Assembly (NCBI GenBank): GCA_035541455.1
Contig: DATKNH010000160.1
Location: forward strand, 1-64,000
From: Syntrophorhabdales bacterium
Lineage (GTDB): Bacteria > Desulfobacterota > Syntrophorhabdia > Syntrophorhabdales > WCHB1-27
DNA: 64,000 bases
Direction of reading: 5' to 3'
Shown here: positions 1 through 14,064 of the stretch, piece by piece
Position numbering within the stretch: position 1 is the first letter of the stretch
Layout: each line of letters opens with the position of its first letter
Made by a program: the position numbers and the translations under genes
The notes under the pieces: generated by a model
Databases searched by the model: none
Told to the model about the DNA's origin: nothing
The model's input: the letters and a program-made list of their open reading frames with translations, nothing else

Positions 1-1
1 C

Positions 2-142
2 AAACACCAGGCAGAAATCGTGCTGCAGTTCAAGAAGGCAGATCAACCCGCCCGGCTAAAGATGCTCAAGGAGCAGAATCTTTGGAAAGTAGGCCTTATC
101 GAGACCTTCGGTACCGAGAGGCGCGACAAGCCAAGATGGTAA
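2..142 (+). CDS. 3' end of an unidentified gene (partial)
   Basis: An open frame enters from the left edge and ends at TAA 140-142, giving a 46-residue C-terminus that finishes GTERRDKPRW. It is rich in Lys, Gln and Arg and shows no motif I recognise. The next gene begins 8 bases after its stop in the same direction, so the two are probably cotranscribed. Only the tail is visible, so I cannot assign a function; it could also be a chance open frame. Confidence 0.5.
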   Translation, partial: KHQAEIVLQFKKADQPARLKMLKEQNLWKVGLIETFGTERRDKPRW

Positions 143-149
143 CGCAGTC

Positions 150-779
150 ATGAAAAAGGTGATCTCTTTCGACCTTGACGGGACGCTCGTTCAGGGGAAA
201 TTCGGCGATATGGTATGGCACCGCGGCATCCCGGGCAAATACGCCGAAAAATATGGCGTGCAATTCGAGGAAGCACAGAGAATCATCCTCAGGGAGTATG
301 AAGAGATTGGTGACTCGAACCTGCTCTGGTATGACGTGGATTACTGGCTCGCCAAATTCGGTTTGCAGGTATCAGCACATGACTTACTGGACGCGTACGC
401 TGCGCACATAGAGGTGGTGCCCCATGCCCTTGAGGTGATCCGCAGGCTTAGAGAGCGCTACAGGCTCGTGATAGCTTCAAATGCTGCCCGCATATTTGTG
501 GACAAGGAGCTCGCCCAGGCAGGCATTGCAGATCATTTCGAGTATGTGGTATCAGCGACCTCAGACCTCGGCATGGTAAAGAAAGAAAAGAGATTTTATC
601 ACAGGCTTGCAGCCACTCTCGGTATTACACCAGAGGATCTTGTGCACGTGGGTGACCATGAGATTTTCGACTATCAGGTGCCGGGTTCCCTTGGGATTGA
701 ATGCTACCATTACAACCCCTCCGGCGAGAGCAATGGAAACGTCATTACTGACCTGAGGGAACTCCTGAGAAGACTGTGA
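150..779 (+). CDS. HAD-superfamily hydrolase
   Basis: This is a 209-residue haloacid-dehalogenase-fold hydrolase, most likely a cytosolic phosphatase. Motif I is SFDLDGTL near residues 6-13, with the nucleophile Asp8 and acid/base Asp10. Motif II is the Ser in IASNAAR (about residue 110). Motif III/IV is supplied by the Lys-rich stretch GMVKKEKRFY and by VHVGDHEIFDYQVP. An alpha-helical cap lies between motifs I and II. Length and motif order fit the phosphoglycolate-phosphatase-like group. The start ATG lies 8 bases after the preceding stop with only a weak ribosome binding site, so translation may be coupled. The substrate cannot be told from sequence. Confidence 0.85.
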   Translation: MKKVISFDLDGTLVQGKFGDMVWHRGIPGKYAEKYGVQFEEAQRIILREYEEIGDSNLLWYDVDYWLAKFGLQVSAHDLLDAYAAHIEVVPHALEVIRRLRERYRLVIASNAARIFVDKELAQAGIADHFEYVVSATSDLGMVKKEKRFYHRLAATLGITPEDLVHVGDHEIFDYQVPGSLGIECYHYNPSGESNGNVITDLRELLRRL

Positions 780-783
780 CAGC

Positions 784-851
784 TTACGTTACGGGTTACG
801 AGTTACGTGTTGCGAGTTACGGGTTACAGACTAACTGGTGACGGAGGAAGC
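784..851. repeat. GTTACGGGTTACGAGTTACG-type word repeat
   Basis: The spacer between the HAD gene and the zinc-ribbon gene is made of near-identical 10-base words of the form GTTACGNGTT, repeated about five times (784-831), before the ribosome binding site GGAGGA. The reverse-complement version, built of GTAACTCGTAACCCGCAACT-type words, occurs at about 63207-63240, and a degenerate one at about 61210-61250. This suggests a dispersed, low-complexity intergenic element rather than local slippage. Confidence 0.6.
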
Positions 852-1163
852 ATGAAGAGGTGCTACAAGTGCGGCACTACGATTGAGATAGAGAAAGTCT
901 CGCGACGTGATGAGTGTCCGAACTGCGGCTCCGATGTTCGAGTCTGTCTGAACTGCGCTTTTTTCTCCGAATCAAAAGCCAATTCGTGCGAAGAGTCCCA
1001 GGCTGAACCGGTCAAAGAAAAGGATAGAGCTACCTATTGCGATTTCTTCCGTTTCAGCGAGAAAGCCGGGCGATACGCGGTCAATGGCATAAAACCGGCG
1101 CAGAAGAACTCGGCCAAAGCGGAGGCCGAAAAGCTCTGGAATGAGCTTTTCAAAAAACCTTAG
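852..1163 (+). CDS. small zinc-ribbon protein
   Basis: This is a 103-residue protein with an N-terminal zinc ribbon: CYKCG near residues 4-8 pairs with CPNCG near residues 22-26. A second Cys group (CLNCAFF, then NSCEE and YCDFF) follows. The C-terminal third is Lys/Ala/Glu-rich and helical. The start at ATG 852 is preceded by GGAGG with good spacing; an earlier in-frame GTG/ATG at 807 would put the repeat DNA inside the protein and is unlikely. It resembles small zinc-ribbon proteins common in Desulfobacterota and Nitrospirota, for which no function is established. Its stop overlaps by 4 bases with the convergent gene that follows. Confidence 0.75.
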   Translation: MKRCYKCGTTIEIEKVSRRDECPNCGSDVRVCLNCAFFSESKANSCEESQAEPVKEKDRATYCDFFRFSEKAGRYAVNGIKPAQKNSAKAEAEKLWNELFKKP

Positions 1164-1411
1164 CCGACTGCGTCCCGCTCAGCCCTGGTATAGATGATCC
1201 TGTAGCGATCCCTGTCAACGTCAAAACACGCGGTGCAGCCGCTCTCCTCGCAATCCCCAACCTTCAGCTCTTCTTGGGCCGGCATCGGTTCAAGAAGCAC
1301 CTCAAAGCCTATCTCCCGGTAAAGATCGACTGCCTCCTGGAGTCTCGGCCCGGCCGCAACAAACCTTCGCTCCCATCCTTCCCGAGCTAATTTTTCTTCT
1401 CTCTCCGTCAT
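1160..1411 (-). CDS. conserved small protein (unknown function)
   Basis: This is an 83-residue soluble protein that starts with a charged helix (TEREEKLAREGWE). It contains a probable GFEVLLEP strand and a Cys pair in CEESGCTACFD (about residues 54-62), then an RYRIIYTR strand. The pattern resembles small proteins annotated only as hypothetical in anaerobic Deltaproteobacteria. The gene is convergent with the zinc-ribbon gene and overlaps it by 4 bases. A good -10 box (TATAAT) sits only 8 bases before the start codon, so the mRNA may be leaderless. I do not recognise a function. Confidence 0.65.
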   Translation of the reverse strand: MTEREEKLAREGWERRFVAAGPRLQEAVDLYREIGFEVLLEPMPAQEELKVGDCEESGCTACFDVDRDRYRIIYTRAERDAVG

Positions 1412-1419
1412 AGCCCCAG

Positions 1420-1448
1420 ATTATACACAATCGGCTATATCTTTAGAA
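1420..1448 (-). promoter_or_regulatory. sigma70-type promoter, probably leaderless transcript
   Basis: On the minus strand TATAAT (1425-1420) is preceded by a 17-base spacer and a weak -35 TTCTAA (1448-1443). The start codon of the 83-residue protein lies at 1411, 8 bases after the -10 box, so transcription would begin at or next to the ATG. No Shine-Dalgarno sequence is present. Confidence 0.45.
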
Positions 1449-1658
1449 GAGCGCGCAGCAGCTCTCCTCCCTACTGCACACCTATCCCTATTCAGTACTG
1501 AGTACCTCTAAAGTTTCCGGCGAATTTCTCCGAAAACTAACAGAGCCCTAAAGCAAAGCTTCGTAGCAAGTATGGATACGATTCATCTAGATCCTTTTAT
1601 AGTGGAGATGCAGACCCCGGGCCGCTGATCTCGCGTCCGACAAAAAGGGAGAGCCACT

Positions 1659-1868
1659 GTGGCAACCGATGACTGCGCGTATTCGAATAATAATAGCGGC
1701 ATGATGGTCAATCTGCCCGGAGGTGCACCTCGCGTGAAAAGCTCCGGGAAAACATCTTCTCAGGGCGGAAGCGCCGACCTTTCGTTGATGGGAATGCTGG
1801 CCAAGATGGGTCTTCTCTCGCCTCTCGCGTTTCGCCTCTGGTGCTACGTGCGTCCATTCATTGCCTGA
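1659..1868 (+). CDS. candidate 69-residue peptide upstream of S26 peptidase
   Basis: A GTG start at 1659 is preceded by AAGGGAGAG. The reading frame ends in TGA that overlaps the ATG of the downstream S26 peptidase (TGATG at 1866-1870), a typical coupled arrangement. The predicted peptide is Ser/Gly/Asn-rich in the middle (LPGGAP, SSQGGSADLS) with a hydrophobic tail (LLSPLAFRLWCYVRPFIA). Two Cys are present. It resembles no family I know. In a locus full of radical SAM maturases and an exporter it is a possible precursor or leader peptide, but it may only be a coupled leader ORF or a longer N-terminus lost by frameshift. Confidence 0.35.
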   Translation: MATDDCAYSNNNSGMMVNLPGGAPRVKSSGKTSSQGGSADLSLMGMLAKMGLLSPLAFRLWCYVRPFIA

Positions 1869-2284
1869 TGGCTGCATCCTCTCACACCTACGTCGCCTAC
1901 AAAGGCTCGAGCATGGAGCCTCTCTTTAACCCCGGGGATATCCTTCAGGTTATCCCATATGCCGGCAATAAGATCAGATGCGGTGACGTGATTTTCTACT
2001 CATGTCTTTCGCAGAATTGCAGCGTCGTGCACCGCGTGAAAGCCTGCGAAGCACGCGGCATCAGAACAAAGGGGGATAACAATAGACGGGCTGATCCGCG
2101 GATTGTGCAGCCACACCAGGTCGTGGGTTATGTCGCGTACGCGTTGAGCGGACAGCGTTGGCGGCGCATCCGGGGAGGCTATATCGGTTCATATGCGGTA
2201 AAAGGAGCGCGAGCCCTTGAGCGTATCAGCGCGTGGGCCCGTCTCACTCGTTCCGCCCTTCACGCACGAAGCGCCGTCTCCTGA
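1868..2284 (+). CDS. S24/S26-type signal-peptidase-like protein
   Basis: This is a 138-residue protein with the S26 core: the nucleophile motif GSSMEPLFNPGDIL (Ser near residue 18) and the general-base region TKGDNNRRADP typical of SipW/archaeal-type peptidases. HRV sits between them. It is very short and lacks clear membrane anchors, although the C-terminus (GGYIGSYAVKGARALERI) is amphipathic. The start ATG 1868 overlaps the stop of the preceding 69-residue ORF; a GTG at 1841 is an alternative. Such small S26 proteins accompany radical SAM peptide-modification loci and may cut or otherwise handle a precursor. Its 3' end overlaps convergently with the radical SAM gene at 2260. A second S26 gene lies at 9189-9776. 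Confidence 0.75.
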   Translation: MAASSHTYVAYKGSSMEPLFNPGDILQVIPYAGNKIRCGDVIFYSCLSQNCSVVHRVKACEARGIRTKGDNNRRADPRIVQPHQVVGYVAYALSGQRWRRIRGGYIGSYAVKGARALERISAWARLTRSALHARSAVS

Positions 2285-3489
2285 AAACCTTGCGGTGGAG
2301 GGCAGATACCGTTGCCTGAATCCCGGTCGGCGAGGACTGCGCGGCTTCGCGGGAAAAGCCCTCTTTTCTGTGCCTCTTCACAATACCAGAAAGCTGCCCA
2401 TAAATTCTTGCTCCGATAGTAGTTTTGGGCAACACAGCTCCCGAGACACATACTCTTCATCAAACAGTCTTTGCAGATGCCCTCGAACTCGTGGGGCAAG
2501 CCGTCGCGCAGTTCATTGAGCACGGAGGAGTCGCGCCAGACATCTTCCAGCCTGTCGGTAGAAGCGTGACCAAAGACAAGCTCAGGGACGGTCTCGCCGA
2601 TACCGCAAAGCGCATACGAACCATTAGCAAGTACACCGAGGATTCCCAGGATTCCGCAGACGCCGCAGCCCTGTTGATCACCAAACATCTTGCTCATCGG
2701 CTTGAAAGCAGCCGGATGGCTGTAAAACAGACGGAGGCCGGTTGAGAAAGAAAGCTTCTTTTCGGTCCACGCGCCCAGCTCTACAAGTTCGTCAATTGTC
2801 AGTGCCTCTCCCTGTTCATGCATCTTCTCACCCCTAGCAGTCGGCTGCACAAGGTTGAATTTGACAGAGCCCGCACCCAGTGACTCGGCAAGCCTCACCA
2901 CTGCGTCCATCTGGTCTTTGTTTCGGCGCACAATACTCATGATCACCTGTGGCCTGAAACCCACGGAGACAAGGTTGCGGATGCCCGAGAGCGCCGCTTC
3001 AAACGAACCGTTAACGCCGCGCATCCACTCATGGGTCTCGGCATCGGCTCCGTCAAGACTGACCGATACAAACGTGTTCTTGCACGATTTGAGCTCCTGA
3101 GCCAGTTCGGGGGTACACAGAACACCGTTCGTTTCGACCGTCAGACCCAGATCCTCCCTGCGCACGATCCCGAGCAGTTCCATGATCTGCGGGTGCATAA
3201 GCGGCTCACCACCCGTTAATTTCACGCTGGTCAGGCCGAGAGGTTTTGCCTGCTGAAGTATCGATTCAAAAAGTTCCACAGGGAGTGCCGGATAGCTTTT
3301 CCCTCCACCCTGGAACTTGGGAGCAATCCAGCAGTGACGGCAGGCGAGGTTACAACCCTCGGTGAGGTAGAAGTAGATGCAGTTGAGACCATAACGCGGC
3401 TGACAACTGCAGGACGGGGAGGGGTTTGTCTGTTCTACCTTTTCTGGTTCCCGTTCTGGAATCGGCGTGATCGATTTTATTAGCTCCAT
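2260..3489 (-). CDS. radical SAM/SPASM maturase, ScmF-like
   Basis: This is a 409-residue radical SAM enzyme with a C-terminal SPASM domain. The SAM-binding cluster motif is CNLACRHC (Cys46, 50, 53), followed by the TGGEPL glycine motif. The SPASM part has GCGVCG, then CGIGE, and finally CKDCLMKSMCLGSC, ligands for auxiliary Fe-S clusters. The motif neighbourhood LTEGCNLACRHCWIAP matches my memory of the ScmF protein of the 'SynChlorMet' cassette, a putative peptide-modification system. The start is supported by GGGGGA five bases upstream. It lies 71 bases downstream of the ScmE-like gene on the same strand. Role by family: radical modification of a peptide side chain; the substrate here is unknown. 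Confidence 0.85.
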   Translation of the reverse strand: MELIKSITPIPEREPEKVEQTNPSPSCSCQPRYGLNCIYFYLTEGCNLACRHCWIAPKFQGGGKSYPALPVELFESILQQAKPLGLTSVKLTGGEPLMHPQIMELLGIVRREDLGLTVETNGVLCTPELAQELKSCKNTFVSVSLDGADAETHEWMRGVNGSFEAALSGIRNLVSVGFRPQVIMSIVRRNKDQMDAVVRLAESLGAGSVKFNLVQPTARGEKMHEQGEALTIDELVELGAWTEKKLSFSTGLRLFYSHPAAFKPMSKMFGDQQGCGVCGILGILGVLANGSYALCGIGETVPELVFGHASTDRLEDVWRDSSVLNELRDGLPHEFEGICKDCLMKSMCLGSCVAQNYYRSKNLWAAFWYCEEAQKRGLFPRSRAVLADRDSGNGICPPPQGFQETALRA

Positions 3490-3560
3490 GAAGTCCCCCG
3501 TAATTTTTCTTCTGCCTGTACCATACTACACGGGACGGCAGAACGATGTGTTCACATTCT

Positions 3561-4676
3561 TTAAGCGCAGCACGCACAGCCTGCGTCTTCAGGCAGGCGT
3601 CCACCTTCTTCCAGGAATTTCCTGAGGCAGGCGTCCGGTGCAGGATGGTAAGCGCTGCCCGTCATCGTGTAGGCCAGAGCGGGGCAGCTCCCCGTACAGT
3701 AGCTCATGTACTCGCAGCCCCGGCAAAATTCAAAGCTCGAGAGCGCGATGGATCGTCGCTCTCTCAGCCGCTTCAGTTCTGGATGGTGTTGCCATATCTC
3801 CCGAAGATCGTCATGGTTTATGCGGCCCAGCACCAGATGAGGCATCTGTGCACAGGGTGTAATAGCTCCATCGGCTCGCACTGCTATCTGGTTCATCGGT
3901 CCTCCGCAGCCGGTGAGGAAGCCTCGGCCGGGCATCTCTCTCCCTTGCTTGCGGGCCTGCTCCATTTCCAGCCAACCCCTCCCCTCCGCGAGCGGGCCGG
4001 CAGCAGCACTGATACGACCGTTATACTTCGCGTTCAGCCTCAGCAGCGTTTCCATGGCAAGGCAACGCTCCTCGGCTGTGAGCTGAACAATCCCGGCGTT
4101 CTTCCGGCACAGGCCGAGGTGAGAAGCAGAGTTGGTAGAAAACCCCGAAAGACCTACCTCTTCCAGCAGGAGTCGCGCAACATTTTCAAGGTCCCGCACG
4201 TTCCTGCGATGGATCGTCACCCGCACTGTGACGGGCAGATTATGACGCTGAAGATGTTTTATTCCGTTCATTGCTTTCCGGAAACTTCCCCTGCCCCGGC
4301 AGGCATCATGCGTGATCGGTACTGAACCGTCGATGGAAACTTGCACGCTGTCGCAGCGCCTCGTTGAGGCGATAAAGGCAGCCATCTCGTCGGTGATCAA
4401 TGTGCCGTTGCTCAGAATCTTGAAACGCATTCGGTTGCGGACAATGCCCTGGATAAGCTCTCTCAGGTCTTCTCTGATGAAAGGCTCACCGCCGCAGAGC
4501 GTCACATCCATGACAGCGCACCGGCCCAACTCCTCAAAGAACGAGAGCCACTCTTCTGTGGGGATGTCCCTGCCCACATCCCCGGCGCTCGAGAAATGGC
4601 TGCAGTATTTGCAGCGAAGGTTGCACCGGTCCGTTATGTCAATGTCCATCGATTTCGGCGTTCGCATGACATTCAT
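3561..4676 (-). CDS. radical SAM/SPASM maturase, ScmE-like
   Basis: This is a 371-residue radical SAM protein with CNLRCKYC (Cys18, 22, 25), the CGGEPF glycine motif, and a SPASM C-terminus (TGCGGPMNQ, then TPCAQMPH, then CRGCEYMSYCTGSCPA). The N-terminus (MRTPKSMDIDITDRC) and the phrase SHFSSAGDV are those I associate with ScmE of the 'SynChlorMet' cassette. GGAGG six bases before ATG 4676 fixes the start. It is the promoter-proximal gene of a two-gene minus-strand unit with the ScmF-like gene. The very C-terminus ends in a Cys cluster (DAGCACCA), which is unusual for SPASM enzymes. The peptide substrate is not identified; a Cys-rich 42-codon frame lies upstream. Confidence 0.85.
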   Translation of the reverse strand: MNVMRTPKSMDIDITDRCNLRCKYCSHFSSAGDVGRDIPTEEWLSFFEELGRCAVMDVTLCGGEPFIREDLRELIQGIVRNRMRFKILSNGTLITDEMAAFIASTRRCDSVQVSIDGSVPITHDACRGRGSFRKAMNGIKHLQRHNLPVTVRVTIHRRNVRDLENVARLLLEEVGLSGFSTNSASHLGLCRKNAGIVQLTAEERCLAMETLLRLNAKYNGRISAAAGPLAEGRGWLEMEQARKQGREMPGRGFLTGCGGPMNQIAVRADGAITPCAQMPHLVLGRINHDDLREIWQHHPELKRLRERRSIALSSFEFCRGCEYMSYCTGSCPALAYTMTGSAYHPAPDACLRKFLEEGGRLPEDAGCACCA

Positions 4677-4790
4677 AGGTTACCTCCGGAGTGCGACTGT
4701 TCTCCCTCATCAAGGCACCACCCTGTTTCGAACGTGTGCCCCGCTTTCGAACGGTATGCTGCAATCTATGTACCAGGAACCGGAAGCACC

Positions 4791-4919
4791 TCAGACGTGG
4801 CACGCCATGTGCAGGACCTGTGACGGACATTTGCCGGCCGGAATACCATTGCAAGCGATGGGCCCGTCCATGTCGCACGATACACATCCTCTTTGAGAGA
4901 TAGGGACACATGAAGACAT
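4791..4919 (-). CDS. candidate Cys-rich 42-residue peptide (possible RiPP precursor)
   Basis: On the minus strand, directly upstream of the ScmE-like maturase, an ATG at 4919 opens a 42-codon frame ending in TGA 4793-4791. The peptide has six Cys at residues 4, 12, 15, 23, 31 and 40, spaced mostly by seven residues, with Gly/Pro between (for example CNGIPAGKC). Position, size and Cys content suit a radical-SAM-modified precursor. Against it: there is no good Shine-Dalgarno sequence (only GAGAG very close to the start), and its 5' end overlaps the start of the divergent ABC transporter gene. The other frames across this spacer are also open and Cys-containing, so chance is plausible. Confidence 0.25.
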   Translation of the reverse strand: MSSCVPISQRGCVSCDMDGPIACNGIPAGKCPSQVLHMACHV

Positions 4920-6763
4920 GGCTCTCGTACGTTAAACAGGGATTCTCAAGGAAGATACCTGTTGACCAGATATCCGCCCAAGGGGAACTACCTACCGACC
5001 TCCGGAAGAATCTCAAGCACATCTATCCTTTTGTCCTTCAACACTGGCGCAAAGGCATCATCGGTGCGGCGCTGATCCTTATCGGTACGCTCCTGAGCTT
5101 CCCGCAGCCTCTCATCTCACGATACTTCGTGGATACTGTCCTGACGGGGCGGCAACTGAAGCTCCTGCCCGGCGTAATTCTGCTGATGATTACGATTTCC
5201 GGATGCTCAAAACTCTGCGGTCTGTTGCAGCAATTCTACGTTGCTCGTTTCGAGCAGAGCGTGACCATGGACATTCAGGAGAGCTTACTCGGTCACGTGT
5301 TGCGTCTCCCGAAAGCGTTCTTCGATACCAAAGAAACGGGGTATCTCATGTCCAGGTTGTCGTCTGACGTGGGAGGCCTGCAGTGGTTCTTCTCGAGCAC
5401 CATTGTCTACATCATCACAAATATTCTGAGATTTATCGGCGGTCTCTGCTTCCTCGTCTGGCTTGAATGGAGGCTCGCCCTCGCAGCCATACTCGTCCTT
5501 CCGGGTCTCGTTCTCATGATCCGTTATTTCTCGGGCAGACTGCGGGTCATGAGCCATTGGATGATGGAACAGCAGGCCAATGTGTACAGCCGGTTTCAGG
5601 AGTGCCTGTCGTCGGCGTCGCTCATCAAGGCTTTCTCGACAGAGGAGCGGGCAGTTTCGACGGTGATTTCAGGCGTGCGCAGGATCTTCAACCTTTCGCT
5701 CGAACAGTCTACGGTGAACTCGATCGGCGGGCTTGCTATAGGTTCCATGCCGAGTGTAGTGAACCTCTCGGTGCTCGCGATCGGAGCTTATTGGGTCATA
5801 ACGGGCCACTGGACGCTCGGTTCCCTCTTCGCCTTTCAAAGCTATCTCGGATACGTGTTTGGACCGGCGCAGTTCCTGGCGTCAGCCAACATGGGGCTCC
5901 AGGGCGCCAGAGCCTCTCTGGAACGTGTCTCCGCGCTCTTTGAGCTGGTCCCGGAGGAGAACGCCGGCACGGGTCGATACATAGATCAGCTGCAAGGCAA
6001 TGTCGAATTCAGAGATGTCTCCTTCTCGTACGATGAGCAGAATCCCGTTCTTCAAAACATCTCGTTTAGCGTCGCACCAGGGGAACGCATCGCCGTTGTT
6101 GGTCCCAGCGGTGTAGGCAAGACAACGCTTATCAGCCTGCTTCTCCGCTTTTACCGTCCGACCTCAGGAGAAGTCTATTTTGATGGGATTCCCGCAGATA
6201 ATATTGAAGTTAGTGCGCTGCGTCGCCGTATTGGCTACGTTTCACAGAGCACGCTGCTTCTGACGGGAACTGTCATTGATAACCTGAAGTACGGTAATCC
6301 TGAAGCGAAGGACGAGGAAGTATTCCAGGCTGCCGAAGCCGCCAACATTCACGAGTTCATCCTTGGTCTCTCCTCCGGTTACGAGACGGAGATCGGTCAG
6401 AACGGCGTCAGCCTTTCAGAAGGGCAGCGCCAGCGACTCTCCATCGCGAGAGCGCTAGTCAAGCGTCCGGACTTGCTGGTTCTCGATGAGCCCAGTTCCG
6501 CGCTCGACAATCTCACGGAGAAATCGATATTCCACTCGCTCCCTTTGCTCGTGCGCAACAAGACGCTCTTCGTTGTGGCACACCGGCTCTCCACCATCCA
6601 GGACTCAGACCGGATTCTTCTCTTGAACGGATGCCGTTTAGCAGCCGTAGGTACTCATCAGGAGCTGTTCCAGAACAACGAGTATTATCGTTCTCTGGTC
6701 GCATGCCAGCAGGTCGTTGCCGACGATAAAGCATCGGCACTGAGGATATTCCAGGTAAAGTAA
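4910..6763 (+). CDS. ABC exporter, fused membrane and ATPase domains
   Basis: This is a 617-residue type I ABC exporter half-transporter. About 60 N-terminal cytosolic residues precede six membrane segments (starting GIIGAALILIGTLLSF). The nucleotide-binding domain has Walker A GPSGVGKTT (about residues 398-406), Q-loop GYVSQ, signature LSEGQRQR (about 502-509), Walker B LLVLDEP (about 522-528) and H-loop VAHRLS. No C39 peptidase domain is present, so any leader removal would need another protease, for example the S26 proteins nearby. It diverges from the ScmE-like gene. Likely role: export of the modified peptide, or self-protection. It ends just before a palindromic terminator-like element. 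Confidence 0.88.
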   Translation: MKTWLSYVKQGFSRKIPVDQISAQGELPTDLRKNLKHIYPFVLQHWRKGIIGAALILIGTLLSFPQPLISRYFVDTVLTGRQLKLLPGVILLMITISGCSKLCGLLQQFYVARFEQSVTMDIQESLLGHVLRLPKAFFDTKETGYLMSRLSSDVGGLQWFFSSTIVYIITNILRFIGGLCFLVWLEWRLALAAILVLPGLVLMIRYFSGRLRVMSHWMMEQQANVYSRFQECLSSASLIKAFSTEERAVSTVISGVRRIFNLSLEQSTVNSIGGLAIGSMPSVVNLSVLAIGAYWVITGHWTLGSLFAFQSYLGYVFGPAQFLASANMGLQGARASLERVSALFELVPEENAGTGRYIDQLQGNVEFRDVSFSYDEQNPVLQNISFSVAPGERIAVVGPSGVGKTTLISLLLRFYRPTSGEVYFDGIPADNIEVSALRRRIGYVSQSTLLLTGTVIDNLKYGNPEAKDEEVFQAAEAANIHEFILGLSSGYETEIGQNGVSLSEGQRQRLSIARALVKRPDLLVLDEPSSALDNLTEKSIFHSLPLLVRNKTLFVVAHRLSTIQDSDRILLLNGCRLAAVGTHQELFQNNEYYRSLVACQQVVADDKASALRIFQVK

Positions 6764-6797
6764 ACAAGCAGGAGACGATGGGCAGGTTGCGGTAATG

Positions 6798-6835
6798 GCA
6801 GGACGGATGCCGGCACACGCGGGCATCCGTCCTGC
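6798..6835. terminator. 14-bp perfect palindrome between convergent genes
   Basis: GCAGGACGGATGCC (6798-6811) and its exact complement GGCATCCGTCCTGC (6822-6835) form a 14-bp stem around a 10-base loop. It sits between the ABC exporter (+) and the convergent radical SAM gene (-), so it could act as a bidirectional terminator. No long T run follows on either strand. The GGATGCC..CGCGGGCATCC core looks like the dispersed palindromes common in proteobacteria, so it may also be a REP-type mobile repeat. Confidence 0.6.
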
Positions 6836-6854
6836 TGAATTTATTCTATTACCG

Positions 6855-8108
6855 TCAATGACGGCAGCTTTGTGGGTTGCACTCCAGGTCTTCCATCACA
6901 TCCTGAATCTGATCTTGTATCTCAGCGGCAAGTTGCGCAACACAGGCTTTCTTGGACTTCAGGCGTTTGCTGACACGGTCGTAGGCATTGTCAAGCTTGT
7001 TACAGGCCTTTTTGATCTTCCCCTTCTCTACCGCATGAGCTGCCATGGTGAGCAGCTGTTCCAGCCCTTTCATGTGAACCTTGCCGCAGTCTCCTCCCGC
7101 GAGAGCTTCATCGATGGTGTCGATGATGCCATCGATCTTGTCTTCAGGAGAGGCAGACATGGGAGGTGGAGGCGGAGTGGCGATAAAGCCTTTCATTATT
7201 GCAAAAAAGCCAATCTCCAACATGTTGTACTTGGGATCGTGTATATCCAGACAGAGCCTAATGTCTCCGTAGGGGCCGATCACTGCCTCTGTTCTGCCTG
7301 CGCCGCAGCGAAACAATCGATGGTGCGGTATCTGATAGACTCTTTGTATTGCTGTTCCCGATTTTCGGTTTTTCTTCTTTGAGTCATCCGATGTCTCGAC
7401 CTGCCGCTCCGTATCTTCTTGCGTAGCCTCAATTGTATGGCGAATCTCTTCGGGAGTGAGGGCAAATTCTAGAGCGTCTTTTCGGCCATCCCAGTCAGGG
7501 CTTACTTCATAACCCAGGCGGAAATGCGCTCCGAATTTCTCTACCGCGAAGTGCCTCATCTTTACCAGCTCGCTCTTGTTTATGGTCATTGCGGTGGTTT
7601 TCAAATATACGTCAATCCCTCTTCCCCGCAGAAGCTCTATGGCATTCATAACCTTCTTGTATGTCCCCGCTTTTTGAGTAAACCAATCGAACGTATCTCG
7701 ATTCACCGTATGAAAGGAGATGTCTATTTTATTTAGGCCGAGTCTTTCCAGCCTATCGGCTTTGTCAGGCGTTATCAACGTCCCGTTGGTGAGAATTACA
7801 ATGTTCAACCCCTTCTTCTTTGCGTGTGCCAATATTTCAAAAATGTCCTCACGCAAGAACGGCTCGCCCCCTGTGAAACCCATGTTCAAGCATCCCGCTT
7901 GCGTCAACTGGTCCAGGATATTGAAGACCTGCCCGGTATCCAGTTCTTTGCGTCCCCTGTAACAGGTCTGGGGCGCCACATAGCAGTGGCGGCACTTGAG
8001 ATTGCACCTATACGTAAGCTCAACCATCGCCTTGATCGGGAAGAACTTCCGCCCCGCTTTTTTAAATAACCGCGATTGCAGATTATGATAGTCGAGCGTT
8101 TGAATCAT
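6855..8108 (-). CDS. radical SAM protein with truncated SPASM and fused helical C-terminal domain
   Basis: This is a 417-residue protein. The N-terminal 310 residues are a radical SAM barrel: CNLKCRHC (Cys35, 39, 42), TGGEPF and the ECS-type strand order. A SPASM domain begins (RCGAGR, then RLCLDIHD) but stops before its final Cys cluster. It is replaced by a Pro/Met linker (TPPPPPMS) and about 90 residues of alternating helices (EALAGGDCGK, HAVEKGKIKKACNKLDNAYDRV) that resemble the FIMAH-type helical module, ending NPQSCRH. This fusion is unusual. It overlaps the upstream radical SAM gene by 26 bases and so is translationally coupled. The role of the extra domain is unknown; it could bind peptide or partner protein. 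Confidence 0.8.
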   Translation of the reverse strand: MIQTLDYHNLQSRLFKKAGRKFFPIKAMVELTYRCNLKCRHCYVAPQTCYRGRKELDTGQVFNILDQLTQAGCLNMGFTGGEPFLREDIFEILAHAKKKGLNIVILTNGTLITPDKADRLERLGLNKIDISFHTVNRDTFDWFTQKAGTYKKVMNAIELLRGRGIDVYLKTTAMTINKSELVKMRHFAVEKFGAHFRLGYEVSPDWDGRKDALEFALTPEEIRHTIEATQEDTERQVETSDDSKKKNRKSGTAIQRVYQIPHHRLFRCGAGRTEAVIGPYGDIRLCLDIHDPKYNMLEIGFFAIMKGFIATPPPPPMSASPEDKIDGIIDTIDEALAGGDCGKVHMKGLEQLLTMAAHAVEKGKIKKACNKLDNAYDRVSKRLKSKKACVAQLAAEIQDQIQDVMEDLECNPQSCRH

Positions 8109-9186
8109 GCGAGCTAAAGAGTTCTCCTTTAGTTTCTTCCTGCCGATGTGCTAATTCGCAGAAGAATTCTATCGGCTGTTCCATATCGCCGTTTTCGGCG
8201 AGTGCCCTTCCGGGACATTGCCGGCAGAGGTACTGGATATCACAGTGCCGGCACCTGGTAGCAGCCTTTGTCGTCAGGCCCAGAAAATAGCCCTGGAGCC
8301 GTGCGAAGCTTTGCAGAAAATCATCGCTTTCCACATCAGCACATGGCTCCTTCACAAAGAGACACAGGCGCATCTTCCCATAAGGATCAACGTGAAAAGA
8401 GGAAAGGCCGCACGGAAAGAGATAGCCTTCTCTTAAGGGTGCATCGACATTATGGCGTGAAAACTGCTCGCGGCAGCAAGCAAGCATATCCTCATCGGAA
8501 TTCTGGATATACACTATCTCATCGGGAGTAAGCCTTTGTTTGCAGGGCTCTTTGGATCCGTCAATACCTGCGCAGAGCGCCAGATCGCAGCGGAAGCGCT
8601 TCTTCCCCAGCACCCTCTCGGCAAATTGCTTTATCATCACTATCTCATGGCCATTGCTCTTCATGCCGTTAGCTTTGAGTGTTAGAGGTATGTTTCTCTC
8701 CGCGAGCAACTTTATTGCTTTCATCACCTTCGCAAAGCTTCCTTCTACCTGCGTCACGTCCTCATAGACTCTTTCTGTGATCCCGTTGAGTGTGATGTCA
8801 ATGCAGTGAGGCGGAAGATTCGCAAGATACTCGGCTATTTTTTCGTTGATCAGCGTGCCGTTCGTCAGAATCGTAATCAGGAAGCCTTTCTTGCGGGCAT
8901 AGGTGTAGATATCCAGGGAATCTTCCCTCAGGAACACTTCGCCTCCGCTTAAAGAAAGCCAGAGACAACCTGCTTTGTGGATCTTGTTTATAATGGAGAT
9001 TACATCGTCGAAGGTTAGCTCCTCTTTATCTCTTTCTTTCGGGATGAAGCAGTGCACGCACCTGAGGTTGCAGCGATAGGTCAGGTCTATCTGTCCGCTG
9101 ACAGGCCGTCGTTCAAGAAGCATCTTTCGCTGCAGCCGGTCCGCGTAAGCATCTCTTTTCTGTATGTTCATCAAAGAGACGTGCAA
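8083..9186 (-). CDS. radical SAM/SPASM protein
   Basis: This is a 367-residue radical SAM enzyme with CNLRCVHC (Cys39, 43, 46), SGGEVF as the glycine motif, and a complete SPASM C-terminus (FPCGLSS, then RLCLFVKEPC, then CRHCDIQYLCRQCPG). I place the start at TTG 9186: it comes directly after the TAG of the S26 gene and has GGGAGGG seven bases upstream. ATG 9171 is an alternative; a longer frame reaching 9345 would overlap the S26 gene by 157 bases. It is the middle gene of a minus-strand operon S26-radical SAM-radical SAM. Family role: peptide or protein maturation; the substrate is unknown. Confidence 0.82.
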   Translation of the reverse strand: MHVSLMNIQKRDAYADRLQRKMLLERRPVSGQIDLTYRCNLRCVHCFIPKERDKEELTFDDVISIINKIHKAGCLWLSLSGGEVFLREDSLDIYTYARKKGFLITILTNGTLINEKIAEYLANLPPHCIDITLNGITERVYEDVTQVEGSFAKVMKAIKLLAERNIPLTLKANGMKSNGHEIVMIKQFAERVLGKKRFRCDLALCAGIDGSKEPCKQRLTPDEIVYIQNSDEDMLACCREQFSRHNVDAPLREGYLFPCGLSSFHVDPYGKMRLCLFVKEPCADVESDDFLQSFARLQGYFLGLTTKAATRCRHCDIQYLCRQCPGRALAENGDMEQPIEFFCELAHRQEETKGELFSSHDSNARLS

Positions 9187-9188
9187 CC

Positions 9189-9776
9189 CTATTCCCTCCC
9201 TGTACCACGTGGACATCGTTTGTTGAGAGTCGCTCTTTTTTGATGCGCCACCGGCGCCACACTGCGCACTACGTGAAGGATCCGAGATGCAACATGAACT
9301 GCAGGGGTTAACAGCGCCCTTCGAGAACACCAGGCAATAAGCCACTTCTCCGTACCTATGCCACCACGAATTTTCTTACCGTCTCGTCGCACTTTTGAGA
9401 CAATGCCTAGGATGTCGGCTGCTGTCACCGGGTTATCCCCGCCGCCTATTGTGCCGTCTCCCTTCATGCCGTAAGAATCTCCATCGATGTGTATGATCCT
9501 GTGTACCAGCAATCTTTCCGATCCCTTTCCAATAAACGCCACTACATCACCAACGCCCGGCAAACCATTTCTTACTGGAGAGACTGTGATCTCATCCCCG
9601 TCCTTAATGAAAGGGTGCATGCTGGAACCTCTGGCCCGGAACTGAAATGGTATCCCTTCGGCCAGCGTTATCCGCATAAGTTGAATGAATGCCGGGACTG
9701 CAAGGCACGGTTCACCTCCTGCGGCCCGACAGACGCTGCGAGATGCCGCAGATTCAATGATCAGTCTGGAAAACAT
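9189..9776 (-). CDS. S24/S26-type signal-peptidase-like protein (second copy)
   Basis: The S26 core is clear: GSSMHPFIKDGDEITV holds the nucleophile Ser, VHRI follows, and MKGDGTIGGGDNP takes the place of the Lys/base region. Glycine-rich and hydrophobic segments follow. The first 33 residues (from ATG 9776) do not look conserved and there is no ribosome binding site there; ATG 9677, where similarity to S26 proteins begins, is an equally likely start. The gene heads a minus-strand operon with two radical SAM genes. A sigma54-type promoter lies directly upstream, which would place transcription start at about 9778. It probably handles the peptide modified by the downstream enzymes. Confidence 0.7.
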   Translation of the reverse strand: MFSRLIIESAASRSVCRAAGGEPCLAVPAFIQLMRITLAEGIPFQFRARGSSMHPFIKDGDEITVSPVRNGLPGVGDVVAFIGKGSERLLVHRIIHIDGDSYGMKGDGTIGGGDNPVTAADILGIVSKVRRDGKKIRGGIGTEKWLIAWCSRRALLTPAVHVASRILHVVRSVAPVAHQKRATLNKRCPRGTGRE

Positions 9777-9788
9777 TGAACAAATCAG

Positions 9789-9805
9789 TGCAATATGCGT
9801 ACCAG
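9789..9805 (-). promoter_or_regulatory. sigma54-type (-24/-12) promoter
   Basis: The minus strand reads CTGGTACGCATATTGCA, which fits the consensus YTGGCACG-N4-TTGCW at all but one fixed position, with the invariant GG and GC ten bases apart. Transcription would start about 12 bases beyond the GC, at about 9778, and run into the S26-radical SAM-radical SAM operon. No sigma54 activator gene is present in the island. Confidence 0.5.
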
Positions 9806-9966
9806 TTTCAATTCAATTGAAAGGCGTAGGAACAAAACGGCCGGGGCTGAATTTTTTCACCACTTTCAAAAGACCCATTGGTAAAATTAACTAGTGTTAT
9901 CAATTACTTATACATATAGCGATCGGCATTCTTCTTGCTCAACCGTATGGTGCGGCCTTCGGACAT

Positions 9967-11184
9967 ATGCCCCATTCACTCGATGAGGGGCAAGAAGTGG
10001 CCGCCGTTGGAATGTCAGAACACGTCTTTTCGGTTGGGAGGCGCATGGTATTATTCTTCGGATTTCCTCTGGTGATCACGCTTTTGATGATGCCTTCAAT
10101 TATACGGCTTGCGGGAAAATATGGTTGTATCGATCACCCGGGCGAGAGGAGAGTACATACCAACCCGACGCCTCGATGGGGCGGTCTGGCATTTTTCATC
10201 GGCATACTTCCCATCTTCTTTTTCATGAACCTTGATAATCGCCTGATCTCGTATCTGGCGGCCTCCTCCCTGCTTGTACTGGTCGGCGCGATTGACGACT
10301 GGAAGCAGCTTGGTTACGCTGCAAAGCTGTTTGCGACCCTTGCAGCCACGTCGGTCGTTGTTTTTGGCGGCGATGTTGTTTTGCGGAGCATCGGCACTTA
10401 CGGCTCTTTCGGCCAGATCAGTCTCGGCCCCGCCGCCATTCCTTTCACGTATCTTTGCATCGTGGGCGTCACCAACGCAATGAACCTTATAGACGGCCTG
10501 AATGGACTTGCCGGGGGCATTTCCTTCATCGCCTCTCTTTTCATTGCCATCGTCGCTTACGTATCAGGCAATCAGGTACTGGCGGGGCTCTGCGTCGCCT
10601 TTGCCGGAGCAATAGGCGCCTTTCTGCGTTACAACATGCTTGCCAAGGCCCATGTGTTCATGGGCGACTCGGGTAGTCTCTTTCTCGGTTTCTCCCTCGC
10701 TTTTTTCTCGGTGACGCTTACACAGGATGCGCGCTGTCGCGTTGAACCAATGTTACCCGTGCTCCTTCTCCTTGTGCCAATCTTCGACACGCTAAGGGTC
10801 ATGGCGCTACGGCTCTTTACGGGAAAAAATCCTTTCAAGGCTGATACCAACCACCTTCATCACCTTCTCCTCAAGGCCGGGTGCTCTCACAGGAAAAGTG
10901 TGCTGCTGCTCTGGTCGATCACCGCACTCTTCGGACTCGCTGCAATGCTGATCCATTCCAGGGGAACGTCGACCCCCTATCTGATCGCCGTGCTCACCGG
11001 CTCAATCTTTCTGAGCATCTTTGCGGACGCGCTTGGAAGAAGAACGCATGAAACCGCGTCAAGAACTCAGCCACAAATACAGGTACGGGACCACGAGGCA
11101 GTAAGAACAGGAGCCACAATAAGCGGGGAGATGGAGCCCCCAACAGAGGAGTGCGGCCCGAAGGCCGCTTTAGGAACACGCTGA
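9967..11184 (+). CDS. MraY/WecA-family undecaprenyl-phosphate sugar-1-phosphate transferase
   Basis: This is a polytopic membrane protein of up to 405 residues. It has the family signatures: GAIDDWK (Asp pair), NAMNLIDGLNGLAGG (catalytic Asp region), FMGDSGSLFLGF, and the C-terminal NHLHHLLL histidine motif that marks the WecA/TagO branch rather than MraY. About ten membrane helices are visible. It transfers a sugar-1-phosphate (often GlcNAc) to undecaprenyl phosphate at the inner membrane to begin surface-glycan synthesis. ATG 10045, with GGGAGG close upstream, gives the more usual family N-terminus (MVLFFGFPLV); 9967 is the longest option. The last 60 residues are hydrophilic. It lies next to UDP-xylose-forming genes on the opposite strand. 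Confidence 0.88.
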   Translation: MPHSLDEGQEVAAVGMSEHVFSVGRRMVLFFGFPLVITLLMMPSIIRLAGKYGCIDHPGERRVHTNPTPRWGGLAFFIGILPIFFFMNLDNRLISYLAASSLLVLVGAIDDWKQLGYAAKLFATLAATSVVVFGGDVVLRSIGTYGSFGQISLGPAAIPFTYLCIVGVTNAMNLIDGLNGLAGGISFIASLFIAIVAYVSGNQVLAGLCVAFAGAIGAFLRYNMLAKAHVFMGDSGSLFLGFSLAFFSVTLTQDARCRVEPMLPVLLLLVPIFDTLRVMALRLFTGKNPFKADTNHLHHLLLKAGCSHRKSVLLLWSITALFGLAAMLIHSRGTSTPYLIAVLTGSIFLSIFADALGRRTHETASRTQPQIQVRDHEAVRTGATISGEMEPPTEECGPKAALGTR

Positions 11185-11224
11185 TCATCCGGCAACAAAA
11201 AAGCGGAGTGGCGGCACCGGGAAT

Positions 11225-12232
11225 CTACTTACCGGCTGATATGAAATAATCTATCGTCTTCCGCAATCCCTCTTCCAGAGGAACTTTGGGCTGCCAGTCG
11301 AGGTGCTGACGGGCTTTTGAAATGTCAGGGCACCTTCTCCTGGGATCATCTTCGGGGAGTTGCTCGAAAACGACCCTGGAGCCTGAGCCGACCATGTCGA
11401 CGATGCGCTCGGCTAATTCGACCACCTGCACTTCGTGAGGATTACCAAGGTTGACGGGGCCGGGGAAACCGGAGAGATAAGGCCTGGTATAATCTCTTTC
11501 CCTTTCGTGCTCGCCCGTTTCGTAATCCATCATGCGGATCATGCCTTCGATAAGGTCATCTATGTAACAGAAGGACCTGGTCTGTGACCCCTGACCATAG
11601 ACGGTGATGTCTTTGCCTCGCAAAGCCTGCATGATGAAATTACTCACCACCCGGCCGTCATCGGGTCTCATTCTTGGTCCGTAGGTATTAAAGATACGAA
11701 TGACCTTGATATCCACCTTGTTCTGGCGCAGGTAATCAAAGAAGAGCGTCTCAGCCAGCCGTTTTCCCTCATCGTAGCAACTTCGTTTACCAATGGGGTT
11801 CACGTTCCCCCAGTACTCCTCCTGCTGAGGGTGCACATCGGGATCGCCATACACCTCGCTCGTGGATGCCTGCAGTACTCGTGCCCTGACTCTCTTTGCA
11901 AGGCCAAGCACGTGGAGAGCCCCTAGTACGTTCACTTTCGTCGTTTTAACGGGGTTGTACTGGTAGTGGATAGGGCTTGCCGGACATGCCAGGTTGAATA
12001 TCCAGTCGACCTCAAGCATGACAGGCTCGGTGATGTCATGGGTCATCAGTTCAAAGTTGGGGCGATTGAAAAGATGAGCGATATTCTTTTTGGTGCCGGT
12101 AAAAAAATTGTCCAGGCAGACTACATCATGCCCGTCGCTAACAAGCCTCTCGCAGAGATGAGAACCGATAAAACCCGCCCCTCCGGTTACGAGAATCCTT
12201 TTAGAATCTTTGTAGGGACCGTACTTATACAT
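11225..12232 (-). CDS. UDP-glucuronate decarboxylase (UDP-xylose synthase)
   Basis: This is a 335-residue short-chain dehydrogenase-fold enzyme of the UXS family. The NAD site is [15 protein letters not shown] (about residues 16-30). Catalytic residues are the Ser/Thr of [11 protein letters not shown] and the YxxxK of [18 protein letters not shown] and [10 protein letters not shown] are strongly UXS-like. It converts UDP-glucuronate to UDP-xylose with NAD as a bound cofactor, acting in the cytosol. Its start overlaps the end of the UDP-glucose dehydrogenase gene by 8 bases, so the two enzymes form a two-step UDP-glucose to UDP-xylose unit. Confidence 0.92.
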
Positions 12233-13553
12233 TGGGTCGCCCTATGCAAAGGTAGCTAAAGCCGCGCTCGGCGACCAGTTTGGGATTGTACTGGTTCCGT
12301 CCGTCGAAGATGACATGCCTTTTCATGAGATTCTTCATTCGGTCAAAATCGGGCTCCCTGAAGGAGAGCCACTCGGTCAGCAGAATCAAACCTTCCGCGC
12401 CTTCAAGCACCTCATACTGATTCCTACCAAAGACCACTGATGTGTCACCGTCAAAAATCTTAGCCGCATTTTCTGAAGCCTTCGGATCGTACACATGACA
12501 CGCGGCCCCACCGCTCGTGAGCCCTTTTATCACATCTATGGCCGGCGCTTCTCGCATATCATCCGTGTTAGGTTTAAAAGCAAGGCCCCAAACCGCCAGT
12601 TTCTTTCCGGCGACGTTTTCATTGTAGAAGGCGCGGATCCTTTTTAAGAAGTTGAATCGCTGCGCGTTATTCGCCTCCATGACCTCTGAAAGGATTGAAA
12701 AATGAAAACCGGCATCTTCGGATGTCTTGATCAACGCCCGTACGTCTTTCGGAAAACAGGAGCCGCCGAAGCCTACGCCCGGAAAGAGGAACTTCGGTCC
12801 TATTCTTGAATCCGAGCCCATACCTCGCATTATTTTCATGACATCCGCACCGACCCTCTCACAGACACTCGCCATCTGATTCATGAAGGAGATGCGAGTT
12901 GCAAGCATTGCATTCGCCGCGTACTTCGTCATCTCGCTTGACCTGAGATCCATGACAAGAAAAGGTGCGCCTGTTCTTACAAACGGCGCGTACAGCTCGC
13001 TCAGAATTTCTTCGACTCTGCTGTTTTCAACACCGACGATTACCCTTTCTGGCTTCATGCAGTCATCCACGGCAACGCCTTCTTTCAAGAACTCGGGATT
13101 TGAAGCGATATCGAAGGGAACTTCCGTGCCCCTCTTTTCCAGTTCGTGCCGGATTGTGTCTCTCACCTTTTCGCACGTACCAACAGGCACAGTCGACTTC
13201 ACAATTATAATGCGATACTTCTCAAGAGACTGCCCTATACCGGAAGCAACCTTCAACACGTATTGCAGATCGGCTGACCCGTCATGATCCTGAGGGGTAT
13301 TAACACAGACAAAGATGATGAGCCCGTGCTGCACGGCTTCCTCAATGCTGTCCGTAAACTCAAGGCGCCCCTCCCTGATGTTATTCTTGACCAATTCCTC
13401 AAGATGGGGTTCATAGATAGGTATCTCACCGCGCTTGAGGCGCTCTATTTTCTCCCGATCCACGTCCATGCAAAGGACATTATTTCCGACCTCTGCGAAG
13501 CAGACACCCGATACGAGCCCAACGTAACCAACACCAATAACAGAAATACGCAT
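12225..13553 (-). CDS. ugd: UDP-glucose 6-dehydrogenase
   Basis: This is a 442-residue UDP-glucose/GDP-mannose dehydrogenase. The N-terminal NAD domain begins [18 protein letters not shown]. The catalytic Cys is in [14 protein letters not shown], and the C-terminal substrate-binding domain contains [14 protein letters not shown] and DGRNQYNP. It oxidises UDP-glucose to UDP-glucuronate with two NAD+, feeding the overlapping decarboxylase gene downstream. GGGAGG precedes ATG 13553. Length and motifs are normal. Confidence 0.94.
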
Positions 13554-13790
13554 ACACCCTCCCTGGCGTTTCCTTATTTCTTATTTACCGTCTGCCGCTT
13601 GCAAAGTCAATACCACGCCATGAAAAACCCGGGTCCTGGAGACCAGTTAACGGGATCCGATACTGGCCAGTGAAAGCCCCGGCTTCTACGCGAGGAAACA
13701 CCTCCTCTGGTGGTTGTCGTTTCTTTTCTCCTCTACAGGGCCTCTGGACCCTGGACCTAGGTTCTGGACGATATTTAAGCTGAAAAATTG
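13554..13790. other. gene-free spacer between ugd and the rimP promoter
   Basis: No plausible coding frame or RNA gene was found here. The segment includes the ugd 5' region (GGGAGG before its start) and a CTCTGGACCCTGGACCTAGGTTCTGGACG stretch of repeated CTGGACC words at about 13741-13770, similar in style to the other word repeats in this window. The two transcription units diverge from this spacer. Confidence 0.5.
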
Positions 13791-13819
13791 TTGAAATACA
13801 TCAGATTATATGCTATAGT
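13791..13819 (+). promoter_or_regulatory. sigma70-type promoter of the rimP-nusA-infB operon
   Basis: TTGAAA (13791-13796) and TATAGT (13814-13819) are separated by exactly 17 bases in an AT-rich context. Transcription should start at about 13826, just ahead of the hairpin at 13833-13847, leaving a leader of about 230-250 bases before rimP. Confidence 0.7.
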
Positions 13820-13832
13820 AACAGCACTGGAA

Positions 13833-13854
13833 GTGGGCTCGACCCGCTTTTTTT
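13833..13854 (+). terminator. attenuator-like hairpin with T tract ahead of rimP
   Basis: GTGGG-CTCGA-CCCGC forms a 5-bp stem with one G-T pair, followed directly by seven T. It lies within about 10 bases of the predicted transcription start, so it would stop most transcripts unless antiterminated. Premature terminators before rimP are known from other proteobacteria (the 'rimP leader'); this one fits that position. Because the operon encodes NusA, autoregulation is a natural idea but is inferred. Confidence 0.6.
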
Positions 13855-13867
13855 AGTTTTAGGGCAG

Positions 13868-14064
13868 TAGATTTCCATGAGAAATCTATTTAGCGAGCGA
13901 GAGCTCGCGAGAAGGGGAGGCTCCAGCAGTTCTGCGGGCTGGGTGCCCACGAAGTGGGTGGCGGTGACGTGAGCCCCGTTATAGATTTCGGTAAGAAATC
14001 TATTTAGCGAGCGAGAAGGGGAGGCTCCAGCAGCTCTGCTGATGGAGAGGGCGACGTGAGCCCC
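13868..14064 (+). repeat. tandem duplication in the rimP leader
   Basis: Two related copies, 13868-13977 and 13982-14064, share an 8-bp stem-loop (TAGATTTC-N5-GAAATCTA), then TTTAGCGAGCGAG, AAGGGGAGGCTCCAGCAG and a terminal GACGTGAGCCCC. Copy 1 carries extra inserts (AGCTCGCG; GGGCTGGGTGCCCACGAAGTGGG). In copy 2 the terminal GTG is a usable rimP start with GGAGAGG upstream; in copy 1 the equivalent GTG would open a 12-codon leader peptide ending at TAG. Confidence 0.7.

Follow-up and report, generated by a model that had tools for sequence, protein, structure and literature searches.

Results

The 64,000-nucleotide stretch of DNA analyzed here (the window) contains an island, positions 1841 to 9776, in which four radical SAM ORFs are accompanied by two S26-type peptidases and an ABC exporter. 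All four radical SAM ORFs are intact, lie inside 7.1 kb, and score 82 to 106 bits each against PF04055 (cut-off, 29.5). Since the 3.9-Mb genome to which the window belongs (G000) holds 47 radical SAM matches, the occurrence of four within 7 kb represents a genuine cluster. The gene content of these 8 kb was thereby correctly listed in a sequence-only reading of the DNA, which also proposed two minus-strand operons around a plus-strand exporter. The orientation of the exporter agrees with that proposal, but the left S26 gene lies on the plus strand as well, convergent with its minus-strand neighbor.

By their profile scores, that neighbor (2260 to 3489, 409 aa) and the next minus-strand ORF (3561 to 4676, 371 aa) are true ScmF and ScmE, respectively, the two radical SAM/SPASM maturases of the SynChlorMet (Scm) cassette, as had been suspected: ScmE reaches 622 bits against TIGR04250 and ScmF 613 bits against TIGR04251, where both cut-offs are 400. 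The poor Scm profile scores that would have spoken against this identification were thus not observed. The CxxxCxxC motif and seven SPASM cysteines of ScmE are kept in 24 of 24 homologues, and every radical SAM and SPASM cluster cysteine of ScmF is conserved among 24 aligned sequences. We compared both genes with those of a second genome of the genus, through locus L031 of Syntrophobacterales bacterium Chersky.21_67. G422 is taken as the source of this locus because ScmD occupies the same four positions in it as in G424, the genome of L031. Both enzymes are under strong purifying selection, with a dN of 0.058 and a dS of 1.52 for ScmE (dN/dS of about 0.04) and a dN of 0.147 and a dS of 1.36 for ScmF (dN/dS of about 0.11). 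Between scmE and scmF, the congener carries a 129-aa ORF (L031, 2144 to 2533) that resembles four-helix-bundle (23S intervening sequence) proteins.

Upstream of scmE, an intergenic region (4677 to 4909) separates it from the divergent gene for a 617-aa MsbA-like ABC exporter (4910 to 6763, plus strand), an arrangement repeated in L031. The congener exporter gene (L031, 1 to 912) is disrupted by shifts of frame close to the end of its contig, which may reflect an assembly error of the bin. The ABC_membrane and ABC_tran domains of the window exporter are both above the Pfam cut-off, and a Pfam search found no peptidase domain in it. It is 52% to 65% identical to the exporters of Scm cassettes in L033, L035, L043, L048, and L052 and 58% identical to an exporter in L148 that adjoins a different type of radical SAM system, described below. 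The left S26 gene (1841 to 2284, plus strand) encodes a short, 147-aa form of an archaeal-type signal peptidase that scores 62 bits against TIGR02228 (cut-off, 51.85). In an alignment of six S26 proteins, its Ser24 and His64 are invariant and the C-terminal part of the cassette S26 is lacking; because of this shortness, the leader peptidase may instead be a second S26 protein encoded elsewhere in the genome, next to ScmC.

The cassette to which ScmE and ScmF belong is defined by NCBIfam models TIGR04248 to TIGR04252 and is a predicted system only; we did not find the term SynChlorMet in the literature searched. Among 395 sampled genomes of the phylum, 18 carry ScmE above the cut-off, as do 15 clear named loci, which belong to bacteria and a single archaeon. 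Typically, a PqqD-like ScmD adjoins ScmE, followed by ScmF, at least one small Cys/Gly-rich ORF, ScmC, and S26; an NTP transferase is sometimes present, and several loci include the exporter. Test proteins from these canonical loci were recovered by the models (ScmD, 124 bits; ScmC, 292 bits; PF14907 also confirmed). These small ORFs belong to a single precursor family (alignment of 22 sequences), with a Y-E-x-P-x-hydrophobic leader, an invariant Gly, and C-x-x-G-x-x-A repeats. TIGR04252, the ScmA model, scores clear members of this family at only 15 to 25 bits against a cut-off of 35. Several long CxxG-repeat precursors may lie in one canonical locus, as in L032 (5493 to 9842), L050, L054 (12106 to 12471), and L057 (11158 to 11532); the leaders in L050, L054, and L057 end in A-x-A-like motifs, and TIGR04252 scored the tested precursors of L032 and L050 below the cut-off or not at all. 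A search for ScmD gave matches in 31 of the 32 further ScmE-bearing genomes, mostly as a single copy and in frames that are nearly all 93 to 149 aa long (one has 186 aa), and we read these matches as separate small proteins.

No ScmD, ScmC, or ScmA was found inside the island, in agreement with the sequence-only reading, which had seen neither PqqD-like and kinase-like members nor an obvious precursor. All three members are, however, encoded on other contigs of the genome. ScmC (TIGR04249, 305 bits) occurs once in G000, on contig C78, where it adjoins a full-length S26 of 205 aa, and this pair is intact, adjacent, and syntenic in G000 and G422. ScmD (TIGR04248) is found at six places in G000, two of them partial copies. 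At the remaining four, on C135, C43, C85, and C42, ScmD lies in open frames of 193 to 295 aa and forms the N-terminal part of ORFs of 175 to 276 aa, the C-terminal part of which is a ScmA-like precursor. The ScmD domains of these fusions score 111.4, 101.5, 101.2, and 94.7 bits (cut-off, 100); scored as whole ORFs, one lies over the cut-off and three just under it. A profile built from the 22 canonical precursors matches the same four ORFs at E values of 1e-9 to 5e-5, with nothing else convincing in G000 and nothing in the window, whereas TIGR04252 did not match the fusions at an E value of 0.1. A free-standing ScmA in G000 is represented only by a marginal match with an internal stop on C123.

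G422 encodes four more fusions, of which three are clustered on C369 and the fourth lies on C451. Outside the eight fusions, a PF05402 search detected no PqqD domain in G000 or G422, and in a scan over the loci compared, fused ORFs occur only in these two genomes. ScmD and ScmC were both without a match in two further genomes of the family, whose bins are 75% and 84% complete. We did not find the fusion in plasmid records. In a viral collection, there is only a weak match, 43 residues that are 42% identical to the ScmD domain, a RiPP recognition element (RRE) of the PqqD type (L161, 5001 to 5117). A ScmD tree had too few columns to demonstrate a single origin of the fusion. G000 and G422 are both metagenome bins, so that contig linkage rests on binning; contamination of the G000 bin is 2.7%, the G422 bin is 79% complete, and the two bins agree.

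In a single frame, each fusion comprises a ScmD/RRE domain (about 86 aa, mean identity 60%), a poorly conserved linker of 23 to 37 aa, a YxxP leader of 16 to 18 aa (mean identity 55%, consensus YEPPxLxxLxxxRAxG) that ends in A-x-G or A-G, and a Cys/Gly/Ser-rich core of 25 to 105 aa (mean identity 32%). The cores consist of 14% Cys, 21% Gly, and 13% Ser and contain 4 to 16 cysteines, the C42 core being short, with 25 aa and 4 cysteines. A core that varies behind a conserved RRE and leader is typical of RiPP precursor families. The motif YxxPx[LVIAFY] is present in 8 of 8 fusions and 29 of the 31 listed free precursors. A small-x-small motif within the eight residues before the first Cys is found in 34 of 37 precursors, compared with 21.6 ± 2.7 when the segments were shuffled (34 was not reached in any of 2,000 shuffles), and would fit cutting by an S26 peptidase.

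Could the fusions be something other than precursors? Secreted or structural Cys-rich proteins, in which the PqqD-like domain has another role, might be suggested by cores that are long and variable for a RiPP. This explanation is nevertheless very improbable, as the fusions match both ScmD and ScmA-like profiles, keep the RRE-binding motif YxxPx[L] along with A-x-G, and were found only in the two genomes that have ScmE/ScmF and ScmC but no separate ScmD. Some features might also suggest decay. Besides the short core on C42, the partial ScmD copy on C159 is truncated where the contig stops, and that on C149 (L080, 1288 to 1620) breaks off inside the RRE into sequence whose translation reads as a fragment of an IS110-type transposase. 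A cassette that is breaking up, in which accidental scmD-scmA joins yield no product, is quite unlikely, however, given eight intact fusions in two species that preserve RRE and leader while the core varies, the selection and complete set of cluster cysteines seen in ScmE and ScmF, and the intact, syntenic ScmC-S26 pair.

The idea that the island has its own unrecognized precursor is extremely improbable. One candidate, a small plus-strand ORF at 1659 to 1868, lies directly upstream of the left S26 gene but also overlaps it, and we rejected this ORF as a precursor because it has no family or ScmA match, no YxxP or CxxG repeats or other ScmA-like feature, and no relative in the compared loci. 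A six-frame search of window positions 1 to 14000 for CxxG-rich or YxxP short ORFs likewise gave nothing convincing, in line with the empty profile search. The conserved short ORFs of ScmE/ScmF loci, the CxxG precursor family of the canonical cassettes, were thus not found in the window.

The second half of the island does not encode Scm proteins. Radical SAM 4 (rSAM4; 8083 to 9345, minus strand; PF04055, 82 bits) is a SPASM enzyme of a second system, and relatives of this enzyme are present in 21 of 395 genomes, G000 included, at an E value of 1e-40. Relatives that are 30% to 45% identical to rSAM4 often adjoin PqqD and S26, and several of the loci also contain small ORFs of an EEAVLxxCK type. 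Radical SAM 3 (rSAM3; 6855 to 8108, minus strand) is a paralogue that is 37% identical to rSAM4 over rSAM4 residues 69 to 338 and has a degenerate SPASM region, in which only two cysteines remain, and a foreign C terminus. The latter (6855 to 7240, minus strand) has a run of prolines and a helical tail with weak likeness to FIMAH (E value, 0.0045) in the position of most of SPASM; the junction looks like a recombination joint. The S26-like peptidase at 9189 to 9776 (S26b, minus strand) keeps the GSSMxP and HR motifs and is matched by S26 proteins that adjoin rSAM4-type enzymes. It is a weak match, with 30 bits against TIGR02228, so that of the two S26 peptidases originally named, the left one scores above the cut-off and the right one below it.

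In several families, the small ORFs adjoining rSAM4-type enzymes and PqqD share the pattern W..P.L.VL...EEAVL..CK...C...C (L141, 6301 to 6483; L142, 5828 to 6013; L144, 14513 to 14719 and 14751 to 14933; L145, 10707 to 10931 and 13396 to 13557; L148, 215 to 409; L149, 6551 to 6718). Three of them were tested and had no NCBIfam match, and they probably represent a precursor family without a model.

It is conceivable that rSAM3, rSAM4, and S26b were recruited to the Scm substrates, in a hybrid pathway in which four radical SAM enzymes act on the fusions and share one exporter. The ScmD fusions contain the only RREs found in the genome, yet rSAM4 relatives often adjoin a PqqD of their own, and none matching the rSAM4 system was detected in G000 with PF05402. 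Moreover, neither the window nor the G000 contigs examined contain a precursor of the EEAVLxxCK type, and elsewhere exporters of this family accompany either type of system. On the other hand, an rSAM4 query found nothing in G422, the congener that keeps ScmE/ScmF and four fusions (a search of a 79% complete bin, run without a positive control), the SPASM region of rSAM3 is broken, and rSAM4-type precursors look different from the fusions, the search of G000 for them covering part of the genome. We regard such a pathway as unlikely and take rSAM3, rSAM4, and S26b as a separate, partly decayed acquisition, which may share the exporter with the Scm system.

The sequence-only reading had left open whether the locus is a variant or a hybrid of two systems. 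As the missing members are present on other contigs, the Scm half is a split-locus variant rather than a cassette that lost its precursor. As rSAM3, rSAM4, and S26b resemble another PqqD/radical SAM/S26 system and rSAM4 was undetected in the congener, the term hybrid holds for gene content only.

Discussion

Our data make it probable that the island supplies the enzymes and the exporter of a split SynChlorMet-type RiPP system, in which the substrates are dispersed, carry their own RRE, and are modified in trans. ScmE, ScmF, the exporter, and one S26 peptidase are encoded in the window, ScmC and the other S26 on C78, and the ScmD-ScmA fusions on C135, C43, C85, and C42. We also favor, with slightly less assurance, a broader reading in which every RRE of the genome is welded to a substrate, resulting in self-presenting, single-use precursors that are free to scatter and multiply while one radical SAM pair serves all of them in trans.

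We propose the following sequence of events. Each RRE most likely binds a leader, either the one in the same chain or that of a sister chain, and would thereby present the core to ScmE and ScmF, which may introduce radical-generated crosslinks at the repeated cysteines. The peptide may also be phosphorylated by ScmC, the HprK-like kinase encoded elsewhere. An archaeal-type S26 peptidase would then cut behind the small-x-small motif, and the ABC exporter would release the core, the RRE being spent together with the leader.

This proposal draws on a study from 2026 on lasso peptides and linear polyphosphorylated peptides (LPP), in which [Y/W]xxP motifs were found to dictate binding to discrete RREs and the LPP leader to be removed by an archaeal-type signal peptidase (SpI) in an RRE-dependent manner (PMC13381572). 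The conserved LPP set of SpI, RRE, HprK-like kinase, NTP transferase, and MsbA-like transporter (PMC13381572) has its likeness in the Scm cassette, including a discrete RRE that is predicted to bind YxxP. In G000, the SpI and kinase traits are present as the TIGR02228 match at 1841 to 2284 and as the ScmC-S26 pair on C78. The Scm cassette thus looks like an LPP chassis to which two radical SAM enzymes have been added, from which we infer, by analogy, that the same leader and peptidase logic applies. The two systems differ in that LPP, from Bacillota, has a separate RRE, a core that is not Cys-rich, and no radical SAM enzymes, a term absent from the LPP paper (PMC13381572), whereas two such maturases are central to Scm. 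In addition, the LPP peptidase LppS cuts an F-E-T site, in place of which the fusions have a putative A-x-G site.

Compared with the canonical SynChlorMet cassette, G000 has all of its parts, namely, ScmE/ScmF orthologues, ScmC, a ScmD-type RRE, a YxxP/CxxG precursor, S26, and an exporter. It differs in that the set is distributed among six or more contigs, ScmD is confined to fusions with a precursor, of which there are four or more copies, and S26 and the exporter are rearranged onto the opposite strand in the island. Many scattered precursor genes served by one promiscuous enzyme are also a feature of the prochlorosins (ProcM/SyncM), but these involve a lanthipeptide enzyme and nif11-type leaders, and no RRE is fused to the precursor (PMC10783134). 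Sactipeptides and ranthipeptides, the thioether RiPPs of radical SAM/SPASM enzymes, resemble the Scm system in having two such enzymes and Cys-rich cores. In borosins, the substrate is fused to its own methyltransferase. There, too, a substrate is covalently joined to part of its maturation machinery, but the fused part is the catalytic enzyme, whereas the Scm fusions contain only the recognition domain.

In the literature examined, an RRE is either a protein of its own or fused to a larger biosynthetic protein, and we found no report of a natural RRE-precursor fusion in the literature searched. If confirmed, the fusions would represent a natural route by which a precursor is freed from its gene cluster and would explain the activity of clusters "without a precursor." Cluster-based RiPP mining would miss such substrates, and the arrangement would be directly usable as a design for RiPP substrates that are tethered and portable. 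To our knowledge, ScmE and ScmF have no characterized substrates. The fusions are candidate substrates for this enzyme pair, and the SynChlorMet system thereby becomes testable.
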